DNA of 64,000 bases from an uncultured Eubacterium sp. (GTDB taxonomy: Bacteria; Bacillota; Clostridia; Lachnospirales; Lachnospiraceae): NCBI GenBank assembly GCA_947088865.1, contig CAMUHY010000007.1, positions 82,798 to 146,797 of the forward strand, written 5' to 3'. The notes under the pieces are model-generated. The model was not told the DNA's origin, ran no database searches, and was given only the letters and a program-made list of their open reading frames with translations. Shown one piece after another: positions 15,397-49,479 of this stretch (the first letter of the stretch is position 1; each line of letters starts with the position of its first letter). The position numbers and the translations under genes are program-made.

Positions 15397-15441
15397 GAGG
15401 TGCGTGCAGCAAAACTGCTAGTTTCCTTATGCACCCCTGCG
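15397..15441 (-). repeat. Structured repeat inside the rplJ leader (second copy at 53434)
   Basis: On the minus strand GGGGTGC (15431-15437) pairs with GCACCTC (15397-15403) around an AGCA/TGCT hairpin. A related block with the same flanking motif gcaggggtgcat lies at 53434-53474, also minus oriented, where the pairing is kept through an additional wobble. Confidence 0.45.
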
Positions 15442-15472
15442 AAAAAAACCTTCTGTCCATATAGACAGAAGG
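15442..15472 (-). terminator. Intrinsic terminator in the rplJ leader
   Basis: Minus-strand stem CCTTCTGTC/GACAGAAGG followed by seven T. It lies between the L10 leader and rplJ, about 120 nt before the rplJ start, so it must be conditional. This matches the attenuation mechanism described for the Bacillus subtilis rplJL leader, where L10(L12)4 promotes termination. Confidence 0.8.
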
Positions 15473-15479
15473 GAAGAAT

Positions 15480-15560
15480 AAACAATCTTAATGTTACTCC
15501 TCGGTAGGCGAATTACCTTTAACCCTTATGGGACCATACTGTCTTAGGCGAAATATATAT
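15480..15560 (-). ncRNA. Ribosomal protein L10 leader
   Basis: Cis-acting autoregulatory leader upstream of rplJ. The minus strand contains the characteristic blocks AAGACAGTA and, about 45 nt later, CCTACCGAGGAG, as in the known L10 leader family of Firmicutes, followed by the terminator hairpin. Boundaries are approximate. Confidence 0.8.
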
Positions 15561-15595
15561 TTAATATAAAACCTTATATCAAACATACGCATTAC

Positions 15596-18116: not shown

Positions 18117-19346
18117 TTACGCATCACAAAAATTAATGACTAATTCTTTTATATGGAATGTATGATTTACCAGCCAAACGCGGAGCAATCGTTCCCCCAA
18201 AAAGCCATACACTCTTTTTTGATATGTATCATAATTACTCACATCAATTCTTTTTTCAAGCTCGTCAAGAATATCAAACAGCCATTGACAATAGGCATCA
18301 AACACATTTTTTCTGCAAATCATCATATTGCCAATATTCATAAAATTACTGTTCATACACAACTCAAACGCCTGTATATATTCTGGATAACGCTGTCTTA
18401 TCACATCTTTACATACAGCCAAATCCTCCTGATGGTGTTTGACTGCATAATGTTCACTTACATTTTTATACGCTGACATAGAACTATTCCCAATAACAAT
18501 GTCATACTGATTCATCAATTCGCAGACATCTTGTTTATTTAATATCTTTCCATTATTTAAAAAATATCTTCTATAATGGCACAATCCCACAACATCACAT
18601 GATATATTTTTCCAAATCCAATATATACCTGTCAATTCACAGTATGTATCATTTTTTATGGATATATGTTCTCCTGTATCATCACCAATAAACCCAAGCG
18701 ATGATTTTCCTTGCTTACCCACATGTAAAGGAATATACATACCCTCATTTAAATCCACACCATTAGGAATAGTAAATTCTTTATGTGCTGCAATATAAAG
18801 TCTAATATCTGCTTGTCTCGTCATTTTTGTACTTAAATCTTGTGTGGTATATTCTTTACTATATAAATTACTTTGTGCAGCTTTGCCTTGAATAAGCGCA
18901 TATTGTCTGCCTTCCAAATCAATTGCCTGACAAGCTGCATGGCTTGTCATAAAATTAACAAAATCGACATCGTTTGTATCTGCCACTATCATTTTGCCAT
19001 GATTTAAAAGCCAATTCCATAACGCTTCTTTTGATATCATCATTGTATTATTATATTCGCTGTTCATATCAAAAAAATAGATTAAGTCATAGACTTTTGT
19101 ATCCAATATATAAATAGATTTTATATTTGTAATTTTATCATATATCTTTGTATATACTGGCTGAACTTTCTCACTCATAGATACACCCTCAAGGATAATA
19201 TCCTTTGAAATCTCACAGTTCATAACTTGCCTTGCAACGGCCCCTATCCTTTGTAAAAATATGCCAAAATCTAATATACTTGTCGGATTTGTCTGTTTTA
19301 TCCACTCAAAATATAAATAAATATCATTGCGGTCCGTAATCACCAT
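18117..19346 (-). CDS. DUF4422-type glycosyltransferase with extra N-terminal domain
   Basis: 409-residue protein. The C-terminal ~230 residues match the DUF4422 glycosyltransferase pattern: IRLYIAAHKEFTIP, GDDTGEHIS, YCELTGIYWIWKN, VGLCHYRRYF and the MNIGNMMICRK segment. The N-terminal ~165 residues look like a methyltransferase-like Rossmann region (SILDFGIFLQRIGAVARQ, later MIVADTNDVDFV), possibly degenerate. Role is probably decoration of a surface polysaccharide or glycan; the donor is unknown. ATG 19346 is chosen because AATGGAG lies 5 nt upstream; a longer frame runs through the leader. The leader has the hairpin/anti-loop motif described in the findings. Upstream neighbour is the K+ transporter gene. 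Confidence 0.75.
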   Translation of the reverse strand: MVITDRNDIYLYFEWIKQTNPTSILDFGIFLQRIGAVARQVMNCEISKDIILEGVSMSEKVQPVYTKIYDKITNIKSIYILDTKVYDLIYFFDMNSEYNNTMMISKEALWNWLLNHGKMIVADTNDVDFVNFMTSHAACQAIDLEGRQYALIQGKAAQSNLYSKEYTTQDLSTKMTRQADIRLYIAAHKEFTIPNGVDLNEGMYIPLHVGKQGKSSLGFIGDDTGEHISIKNDTYCELTGIYWIWKNISCDVVGLCHYRRYFLNNGKILNKQDVCELMNQYDIVIGNSSMSAYKNVSEHYAVKHHQEDLAVCKDVIRQRYPEYIQAFELCMNSNFMNIGNMMICRKNVFDAYCQWLFDILDELEKRIDVSNYDTYQKRVYGFLGERLLRVWLVNHTFHIKELVINFCDA

Positions 19347-19452
19347 AAAAATCTCCATTCTGAAACGTAACATATAAATTGTATATCAAAAATTTGCAAA
19401 AAGGATTTGTATTGTCACATCAAGCCCTATTTGTGACGTTTCAGCACAAATA
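19347..19452 (-). promoter_or_regulatory. Leader with hairpin whose loop pairs next to the SD (copy A)
   Basis: On the minus strand a hairpin with tatttgtg/cacaaata stem (19428-19452) exposes the 9-nt loop ctgaaacgt. The exact complement acgtttcag (19360-19368) lies directly before the SD aatggag. The other perfect copy lies before the PII gene at 48107-48213, with two covarying base changes. Confidence 0.6.
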
Positions 19453-20898: not shown

Positions 20899-21002
20899 AA
20901 TTTATCCTCATTTCTGCACTGCTTTTGCGCAAAAAACACATTATAACTTAATTTGACTTTTCTTACTTTAACTATAAAAATCAACTTATTTATACAACCT
21001 AA

Positions 21003-23380: not shown

Positions 23381-23517
23381 AATAATCCTCATTTCTGCGC
23401 TGTCTTTTGCGCAAGATTCTTTAGATTCTTTTAGTAACTTTGTGTCAAGCAACGCGCAGACACAAAGTGCTAGTTAAATTTTATTTAACTTGTGAAATAA
23501 TTTATTTTTCACACTAA
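23381..23517 (-). promoter_or_regulatory. Leader element copy C with tandem hairpins
   Basis: Three consecutive hairpins on the minus strand: GTGAAATAA-type, AGTTAAA/TTTAACT and ACTTTGTGTC/GACACAAAGT (23437-23468). The last loop includes tgcgcgttgctt, whose TCTGCGC portion is complementary to GCGCAGA directly before the SD aatgagga. Positions 23436-23516 are almost identical (two differences) to 45637-45717. Confidence 0.55.
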
Positions 23518-23530
23518 TAACCTCTCAAAC

Positions 23531-34671: not shown

Positions 34672-34770
34672 TTTTTTCCTCATTTCTTCGCTGCTTTTTG
34701 TTCATCAATGGGTTTGTGACAAGCAGCGCGCAGACACAAATCCCAAGATTGAAAATTTTAATTTTCAATC
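34672..34770 (-). promoter_or_regulatory. Leader element copy E with hairpin loop complementary to SD-proximal segment
   Basis: Minus strand: an AAGATTGAAAA/TTTTCAATCTT hairpin overlapping the stop of the S41 gene, then a hairpin GGATTTGTG/CACAAACC (34711-34744 region) whose loop contains cgctgctt. Its exact complement aagcagcg (34689-34696) lies just before the SD aatgagg, 12 nt after the hairpin, giving a compact pseudoknot. Confidence 0.55.
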
Positions 34771-45567: not shown

Positions 45568-45745
45568 AAAAATCCTCATTTCTGCGCTGCTTTCTTGCGC
45601 AAAAAACAAAATAAAACATTTTTATTTTGTTTTTACAACTTTGTGTCAAGCAACGCGAAGACACAAAGTGTTAGTTAAATTTTATTTAACTTGTGAAATA
45701 ATTTATTTTTCACACTATCCTCCATTCTGAAGTGTAGCAGTTGAA
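45568..45745 (-). promoter_or_regulatory. Leader element copy D (near-identical to copy C)
   Basis: Minus strand: SD-like aatggagg, 12-codon GTG peptide (45675-45713), then hairpins AGTTAAA/TTTAACT and ACTTTGTGTC/GACACAAAGT (45638-45669), an extra AAAACAAAATAAA hairpin (45602-45634) and finally aagcagcgc (45584-45592) before SD aatgagga. The loop segment gcgttgctt pairs with aagcagcgc over 9 nt with one G-U. Confidence 0.55.
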
Positions 45746-45825
45746 ATAATGTAATCACAATCCCACTAGCTTTAAACGATGAGTAATTCACTTTTTGTAA
45801 ATTCAACCTAATTTGTGACGCTTTT

Positions 45826-46353
45826 TTACAAATCATAAGTTTTAAGTATTGGAAAACCCTCTTTATACTTTTTTACTATAAAATGATTGTTTTTTGCATA
45901 ATCATATATTATTTGACCTAACTCATTATCAACTAATGCTTTCATCGTCTCTATATCCACTTTATTGATAGCAGGGCATGTTGGCGTCAAAGCAATCACC
46001 CATTGATTATCTTTTTCCATAATCCGAAGCGGCCATATTTTACAATCAAATGGCTTATCCTCGTCCGATAACATACATCCCTTCTTTAAATCAAGAAAAC
46101 TGCAAGGTACTTCCTCGTCTGGATTATTGGTCTTATATTGATTATCCAATTTCATTCTGCCATAACTGCCCTTTTTATCCTTTTCAATCACAAATAGCTC
46201 ATTCTTATCTTTTCCACCATTGTAATCTTTTTTTCTTAATTTTTCCACTATATCCACTGGAAATAATGGTGTTTCCCACAAACTTTGCCTTCTAAATGAA
46301 CAACAAAACTTACAGTCTGCACACGTTTCTTTTTTTAAAACTTTACTTAACAT
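45826..46353 (-). CDS. YkgJ family cysteine-cluster protein
   Basis: 175 residues. ETCADCKFCCSFRRQ gives the N-terminal CxxCxxCC cluster; CSFLDLKKGCMLSDEDKPFD, CKIWPLRI provides the remaining cysteines of this zinc/iron-binding family, function unknown. ATG 46353 follows GGGAG with 7-nt spacing. It lies downstream of the DUF2156 gene and a hairpin repeat. Confidence 0.85.
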   Translation of the reverse strand: MLSKVLKKETCADCKFCCSFRRQSLWETPLFPVDIVEKLRKKDYNGGKDKNELFVIEKDKKGSYGRMKLDNQYKTNNPDEEVPCSFLDLKKGCMLSDEDKPFDCKIWPLRIMEKDNQWVIALTPTCPAINKVDIETMKALVDNELGQIIYDYAKNNHFIVKKYKEGFPILKTYDL

Positions 46354-48106: not shown

Positions 48107-48213
48107 TATTTGTGCCGAAGCGTCACAAATAAGGCTGCAACAATAGAAAAAACTGCTAAAGCAGTTTTTTCTATTATATGATTCTTACACTACGCTTCGG
48201 AATGGAGAGTATT
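48107..48213 (+). promoter_or_regulatory. Leader element copy B before the PII gene
   Basis: Hairpin tatttgtg/cacaaata (48107-48131) exposes the 9-nt loop ccgaagcgt; the exact complement acgcttcgg (48192-48200) lies directly before the SD aatggag. Between them is a perfect 14-bp terminator-like stem (48143-48174). Compared with copy A both strands of the long-range pairing changed together at two positions. Confidence 0.6.
48143..48174 (+). terminator. Terminator-like stem inside the PII leader
   Basis: Perfect stem atagaaaaaactgc/gcagttttttctat with TAAA loop; the 3' arm contains T6. It ends the upstream membrane-protein transcript or attenuates the PII gene. Confidence 0.7.
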
Positions 48214-48552
48214 ATGAAAAAATTAGAAATTATTATACGTCCAGAACGCTTAGACGATTTAAAGGCCATTTTAAACGAACATGATTCTCATGGACTTATG
48301 ATTACAAACATCATGGGCTACGGAAGCCAACGCGGTCACAAACAAACATATAATGGAATTGACTTTGATGGTAATCTATTGCCAAAAGTAAAAGTTGAAT
48401 CGATTGTCTGTGATGATGTCGTTGAAGATATTATTAACAGCATCATTGACAAAATCAACACAGGCGTCTATGGCGACGGAAAAATATTTATTTATGATGT
48501 CTACGATGCTGTGAGAATCCGCACAGGGGAACGCGGTACAGACGCTCTATAA
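48214..48552 (+). CDS. P-II family nitrogen regulatory protein
   Basis: 112 residues. MKKLEIIIRPERLDDLKAIL start, T-loop region YGSQRGHKQTYNGIDFDG, then LLPKVKVE and B-loop GVYGDGKIFIYDV with C-terminal VRIRTGERGTDAL: a PII protein binding ATP/ADP and 2-oxoglutarate. The uridylylated tyrosine (Tyr51 of E. coli GlnB) aligns with Phe in GIDFDG, so it is not controlled by uridylylation. No amtB is adjacent; the GlnA type III gene is 8 kb away. ATG 48214 is fixed by the SD aatggag and homology. Confidence 0.93.
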   Translation: MKKLEIIIRPERLDDLKAILNEHDSHGLMITNIMGYGSQRGHKQTYNGIDFDGNLLPKVKVESIVCDDVVEDIINSIIDKINTGVYGDGKIFIYDVYDAVRIRTGERGTDAL

Positions 48553-49255: not shown

Positions 49256-49479
49256 AAAAATCTCCATTCCGAAGCGCAACCACTTACATTCATAATGTTT
49301 TGATTATACTGTATACGGCATAAAATGAAAAGTTTTTTCTCTCTTTTTATGAAACCATTTTTATTAAATATTTATAAAAATATACTTATTGTCTAATAAT
49401 TATGTTAAAATAATCAAAGCAATACAATGACATTAATCATTGCTATATAAATTTTTGCCTAATAGGAGGGCGCAAGCAT

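Follow-up and report, generated by a model that had tools for sequence, protein, structure and literature searches.

What kind of structure stands before the PII-like gene of this genome, where the loop of a small hairpin recurs in complement directly in front of the Shine-Dalgarno (SD) sequence, and does it belong to that gene? A preliminary description of the locus took it for a leader RNA in which pairing between loop and target could control ribosome access. Its structural part stood: in the window, by which we mean the whole 64-kb stretch of DNA analysed, the hairpin of copy B, the 9-nt complement before the SD and the terminator-like stem in between are all present, and copy A was likewise borne out, with two compensated positions in loop and target (CTGAAACGT/ACGTTTCAG). 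The features of this first family, family A, are:

48107-48131, plus strand: hairpin 2 of copy B, TATTTGTG-CCGAAGCGT-CACAAATA, with the 9-nt loop CCGAAGCGT at 48115-48123
48142-48175, plus strand: hairpin 3 of copy B, terminator-like, stem 48142-48156/48161-48175
48192-48207, plus strand: right end of copy B, target ACGCTTCGG (48192-48200) and AATGGAG (48201-48207), the SD of the PII gene
48214-48552, plus strand: PII-like gene downstream of copy B, ATG at 48214, named as in the preliminary description
19353-19451, minus strand: copy A, hairpin 2 at 19429-19451 with loop CTGAAACGT, target ACGTTTCAG at 19360-19368, then the SD
45720-45833, minus strand: third copy of the same family, decayed, hairpin at 45811-45833 with altered loop, right end at 45720-45735
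49262-49277, minus strand: isolated right end GCGCTTCGGAATGGAG, no hairpin 2 found, ATG 7 nt further on

The target ACGCTTCGG is the exact complement of the copy B loop CCGAAGCGT and lies directly 5′ of the SD. Copies A and B differ in two loop:target pairs, both partners having changed in each, and the gene behind copy A starts at 19346 on the minus strand. The left hairpin (hairpin 1) is not recognisable in copy B and has been lost; the terminator-like stem is one variant of hairpin 3, and many other copies carry a different one. The window also contains a ribosomal protein L10 leader (Rfam RF00557) at 15433-15566 on the minus strand.

A second family, family B, has the same layout with a different loop/target pair and a different SD context. 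Its stem in the window's genome is TTTGTGTC/GACACAAA, its loop contains GCGTTGCTT or GCGCTGCTT and its target is AAGCAGCGC:

45576-45722, minus strand: family B copy, left end GTGTGAAAAATAA, hairpin at 45640-45667 with loop containing GCGTTGCTT, right-end target AAGCAGCGC
34680-34740, minus strand: family B copy, hairpin at 34713-34740, right end at 34680-34696
23389-23520, minus strand: family B copy, left end at 23502-23520, hairpin at 23439-23466, right end at 23389-23405
20908-20924, minus strand: family B-like right end, no hairpin found

Seven of the 11 matches to the family B right end in loci of the window's genome have a family B hairpin at most 105 nt upstream. The copy at 45576-45722 directly follows the decayed family A copy at 45720-45833, and family B stands directly behind family A copies in several loci. 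There may be a third family (ATTTGTGCCGCCAGC..., at ~7400-7500 of L090 and ~4300-6000 of L145), whose right ends, GGCGG(A)ATGG, precede a start codon or another element.

With any 9-nt loop allowed, the exact stem turns up at 14 places in the window's genome (3.29 Mb, 48 contigs) and nowhere when the pattern is reversed. The consensus hairpin, allowing up to 2 mismatches, is found at 23 places there and the right end ACGYTTYRGAATGGAG, at the same tolerance, at 66 (control 6), while six further genomes hold 31, 2, 43, 32, 15 and 10 hairpins, with reversed controls again at zero. Related genomes do carry further copies: in a Lachnospiraceae sample requested at ≥90% completeness, 27 of 298 genomes and 26 of 280 genera gave a match (control 0), in a patchy distribution that reaches 37 matches in a single genome. 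Scanning named genomes for the pattern gave at least 110 matching stretches; among the matches listed nearly all are Lachnospiraceae (Eisenbergiella, Parablautia, Robinsoniella, Acetatifactor and others), with a few outsiders, among them a Gastranaerophilales and a Bacillota MAG. Chance or an assembly artefact, in favour of which one could cite the copies at contig ends of MAGs, is refuted by the zero counts of the reversed patterns and deserves practically no credence, other copies lying well inside contigs and in isolates, for example Parablautia intestinalis. The exact pattern has no match in viral contigs, plasmids have none, and among phages there are only two unannotated fecal records with partial matches (78–79%); a phage or plasmid origin was rejected on these results. 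A partial element is seen at 1501-1605 of L420 (MT836788.1), an unannotated fecal phage record.

On balance we consider it probable that the structure is a non-autonomous mobile repeat, inserting in sense orientation between the native SD of a gene and the start codon, with a right end that acts as the replacement SD. It is ~130–190 bp long. According to an alignment of 25 hairpin-bearing copies from the window's genome, a full copy runs from hairpin 1 at the left end through hairpin 2 with its 9-nt loop and a variable hairpin 3 to the loop complement and the SD; the left end GTGTGAAAAATAA...TTATTTTTCACAC forms hairpin 1 and is followed by an optional extra segment, and the right end CGCTTCGGAATGGAG sits immediately 5′ of the ATG. 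Some copies are decayed or truncated. The stems of the hairpins covary, and the arms of hairpin 1, whose 5′ arm comes in 52 different versions, are complementary at 9 or more of 10 positions in 169 of 231 copies (control 10/808). With its short, non-coding sequence, many copies and empty sites (described below), the element has the general properties of MITEs and small interspersed repeats. Terminal inverted repeats, as expected of a MITE, are missing when aligned left and right ends are compared: the left ends GGTTGAATAAAT, GATTGAAAAATG and GTGTGAAAAAT, read from the alignments, are not the reverse complement of the right ends CGGAATGGAGGAA. No autonomous copy was seen among the loci read. 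Rfam gave no match to the element at the gathering score in the window and 14 other element-bearing loci, and only sub-threshold matches at a permissive E-value, and we found no description of such an element in the literature covered, which takes in few subscription journals.

The pairing between loop and target, which the preliminary description had inferred from compensatory changes at unlinked loci, proved to be real. Standard pairs fill 94.7% of the 181 × 9 cells of the pairing table, compared with 92.6% (sd 0.2) after shuffling, a value reached in none of 5000 shuffles; the same holds for the 63 distinct loop/target combinations (0/5000). In this table only identical copies were deduplicated, so that orthologous copies are counted twice; the table leaves out 19 of 200 hairpins, which have no assigned target, the L008 target is misassigned, and copy B is counted under L166 and hence outside the window-genome subset. 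Within that subset of 19 copies, 1 of 5000 shuffles reaches the observed pairing, while the 10 fetched copies of genome G025 are not significant alone (473/5000). Pair 4 is A-T in 148 copies, G-C in 26 and other in 7, and 40 of the 181 have a mismatch at pair 2. Loop CCGGAGCGT occurs in 13 hairpins of G025, each of them followed downstream by the loop's exact complement ACGCTCCGG, and in the window's genome compensations or wobbles keep every pair of several diverged copies intact (CTAAAGCGT/ACGCTTTAG, TTGAAGCAT/ATGCTTCGG, TTGAAGTGT/ACGCTTCAG). Pairs have been lost in the diverged copies L007, L013, L014, L024 and L033, and all 16 fetched copies of a G024 subfamily with loop CAGAAGCGT keep a target ending in CTTCGG, an uncompensated mismatch.

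What is the pairing for? The main rival to a role in mobility is translation control, in which the element would be a cis-acting regulator: pairing of its loop with the SD-adjacent target in the mRNA would govern ribosome access, and selection would keep the copies. The target does adjoin the SD, and the retained pairing of the diverged window-genome copies, together with the shuffle result for that genome, would fit such selection, while the losses in the five diverged copies speak against it. Copy B has an exceptional nested RNA fold (z −6.1), and its minimum-free-energy structure opens hairpin 2, pairs loop with target instead and extends pairing into the SD region; the nested fold of copy A is unexceptional (z −0.3). 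Over 60 sampled copies the element folds far more stably than shuffled sequences (−62.7 vs −42.9 kcal/mol), but the control of ribosome access that had been suggested went unsupported: the SD is unpaired with probability 0.322 behind the element and 0.332 behind shuffled upstream sequence (26 of 60 higher, p 0.33). This equality removes the simple masking model. Since the folds are nested and place loop:target pseudoknots outside the model, it does not disprove translation control, and an effect of the element on translation is possible. The genes behind the copies, which we take from their translations to be for example PII, ThiD, glutamine synthetase, DegV-like and MnmG, share no common pathway, as had been noted before, and their unrelatedness, like the sites found empty in relatives, argues against a regulator. 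We regard this alternative as unlikely.

The position of the element, typically between two SD sequences, speaks for the mobile repeat that we favour. Among the 176 copies (out of 181 with an assigned target) that have at least 200 nt downstream, an ORF starts 6–23 nt past the target in 153, compared with 1452 of 7240 random places in the same loci; the distance is 12–14 nt in 140 of these 153 copies (13 nt in 107), and some of the 23 exceptions have an SD and ATG with a short frame. On the other side, an SD core is found within 11 nt to the left of the element in 123 of 149 non-tandem copies, as against 21 of 149 when the search is shifted 20 nt upstream and 421 of 4190 random 11-mers; 26 of 175 copies had been set aside in this test, their left flank resembling the right end of another element. 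At L132 (6046-6160 and 6270-6400), a SAM riboswitch (Rfam match) stands immediately before a copy of the element, ahead of an apparent metK.

That the element goes in between SD and start codon is shown by two sites that are empty in relatives. The comparison, which covers two loci in one genus, set 3.5 kb of Ca. Eisenbergiella merdavium, containing two copies, against 11 relatives displayed per site. At site 1, 10 of the 11 relatives are without a recognisable element, and L246 has a right end without hairpins. The filled site (slashes at the element's ends) reads CGGAAAGGCATGAA/GATTGAAAAATG...CGGAATGGAGGAA/AAATGTTAG and the empty one CGGAAAGGCATGAAAAATGTTAG, or with longer flanks CGGAAAGGCATGAA/GATTGAAAAATG...CGCTTCGGAATGGAGGAA/AAATGTTAGAAG and CGGAAAGGCATGAAAAATGTTAGAAG (L245), which allows a target site duplication of 0–3 nt. 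At site 2, filled AACGGATTGGAGATT/GCCTGAAG...CTCCGGAATGGAGAGT/ATTATGGATG corresponds to empty AACGGATGGAGAAGGAAAATGGATATT in L248, one of five relatives in 11 that are short and element-free (with L251, L253, L254 and L255); L245 has a different sequence with a right end of the same kind and L252 a longer stretch. In the Eisenbergiella relatives L246, L247, L249 and L250 the same SD site contains another GC-rich palindromic insert, GCGGCGCCGGGGC...CGCCGGGATGAAGGAGG. A leader is expected to be conserved at orthologous genes, and here relatives lack the element before the same gene. The overall reading of the preliminary description is borne out in part: the pairing and its compensation stand, as do the further copies in related genomes, while the notion of a leader belonging to these particular genes gives way to an interspersed repeat. 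In the relatives of the window's genus, which are 73% identical, the PII site itself allows no more than a rough comparison. All 6 aligned copy pairs are shared between two species of another genus, at 94–97% identity, so movement there is not recent; no clean empty site for G065 copies was found in G337, where 15 G065 loci were compared with about one third of that genome.

The two empty sites and a simple insertion model do not explain one further property. The left SD resembles the right SD of the same copy more than in any of 4000 shuffles for the GTG type (70 copies) and the AAA type (44 copies), and not above shuffles for the AAT type (35 copies, 926/4000), so a small duplication or later conversion may have been at work in two of the three types. 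Codons 2–3 of the genes are also more similar to the element's left end in 113 targeted starts (3.47) than in 216 others (3.00, p 5e-4). Targeting by these codons was rejected despite this similarity, an AAA or AAT second codon not being enriched (26/113 targeted vs 42/216 other starts).

The left SD faces NTG-AAA-AAT or NTG-AAT-AAA, and one could suppose that a short frame, a leader peptide or uORF, is translated from it through the element. In 69 of 176 copies the frame from the left NTG indeed stays open as far as the target, the two alternative frames doing so in 4 and 23, although the left-end search required TG and biases the start-codon count. It is closed, however, in the other 107, and its register relative to hairpin 2 varies (99, 40 and 37 copies), which leaves no common peptide. 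With no reading frame common to the copies, a coding role was rejected, and we hold the leader-peptide explanation to be very improbable.

Which enzyme could move such a repeat? IS200/IS605-derived elements and REP sequences have asymmetric hairpin ends, insert strand-specifically 3′ of a target and use internal pairing near the cleavage sites. The element shares with them asymmetric hairpin-bearing ends, strand-specific insertion and base pairing within the element, and its hairpins near the ends and insertion 3′ of a fixed target are as expected of this group. It could accordingly be a derivative of an IS200/IS605-type (HUH, Y1) or REP/RAYT system, moved as single-stranded DNA, in line with the lack of terminal inverted repeats, the little or no duplication and the sense-specific insertion 3′ of a target similar to its own right end. 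The distribution of enzymes does not follow. Of 11 high-copy genomes, 5 (G137, G190, G221, G239 and G337, 97–99% complete) give no match to Y1_Tnp and 2 more only marginal fragments, yet Y1_Tnp is present in 16 of 21 zero-copy genomes; it is also not found in G024 (43 copies) or in G032, G034 and G036, which have element-like matches with copies uncounted. The TnpB zinc ribbon (PF07282) is absent from 7 of the 11 high-copy genomes, and RVT_1 is present in 8 and missing from G201, G239 and G337. Y1 transposase, reverse transcriptase and TnpB were each rejected as general mobiliser, being missing from several high-copy genomes; judged from these protein searches, none of them can fill this role unless genome gaps or a very diverged protein hide one. 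Descent from an IS200/IS605 or REP system is therefore quite improbable in our view, even if the asymmetric ends, the hairpins, the sense-only insertion 3′ of an SD and the target-mimicking right end resemble a single-strand transposition-like process.

How then might the mobile repeat work? We propose that it inserts in the sense of the gene between the native SD and the start codon and that its right end would carry the replacement SD, so that the gene could still be translated. In single-stranded DNA or RNA the 9-nt loop would pair with its complement just inside the right end, and this would bring the ends together or mark the right end for the moving enzyme; joint changes of loop and target may then have founded new subfamilies. 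The pairing of the loop with the right end probably serves the mobility of the element, and we have moderate confidence that it is an end-recognition device. The left end consists of a spacer, NTG and A-rich codons, and joined to the right end it would give SD-spacer-NTG. This suggests a tentative and more daring possibility, to which we attach rather low confidence, namely a new kind of mobile element for which the translation initiation site is the attachment site: in a circle the joined ends would make up a full SD-start site, the element would integrate by recombination of one such site with another, and the loop would read the right end by pairing, with the enzyme yet to be named.

The closest known kinds are small interspersed repeats such as BOX, RUP and SPRITE. 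These pneumococcal repeats are described as being, like our element, small, interspersed, non-coding and folded, clustered or nested, with insertions shared between strains and no enzyme certain for all of them (PMC3049150). BOX and RUP have, by the same account, terminal inverted repeats and target site duplications (PMC3049150), whereas our element has no such end repeats, at most ~3 nt duplicated at site 1, a fixed site between SD and start codon and an SD at its right end. From IS200/IS605 elements, where pairing involves a 4-nt guide beside the hairpin, it differs in using a hairpin loop with a 9-nt tract, as well as in the several high-copy genomes without Y1 transposase. The pnuC motif candidate is described as a pseudoknot riboswitch with a loop able to pair with the ribosome binding site (PMC8632094). 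The loop here can likewise pair with ribosome binding site sequence; unlike pnuC-type riboswitches, however, the element repeats before unrelated genes, has empty sites and matches no aptamer family. As far as its main text goes, a 2024 review of prokaryotic MITEs nowhere contains the words Shine, ribosome or start codon (PMC10969869).

If the mobile-repeat reading is correct, some gut bacteria would harbour tens of small mobile elements whose target is the handful of bases that separate ribosome binding site and start codon, an unusual target niche, and these elements would be built to do little harm there. They would also lead genome annotation to wrong short ORFs and wrong start codons, and the several versions of the loop/target code may point to recognition of the element's end by the mobiliser through base pairing.
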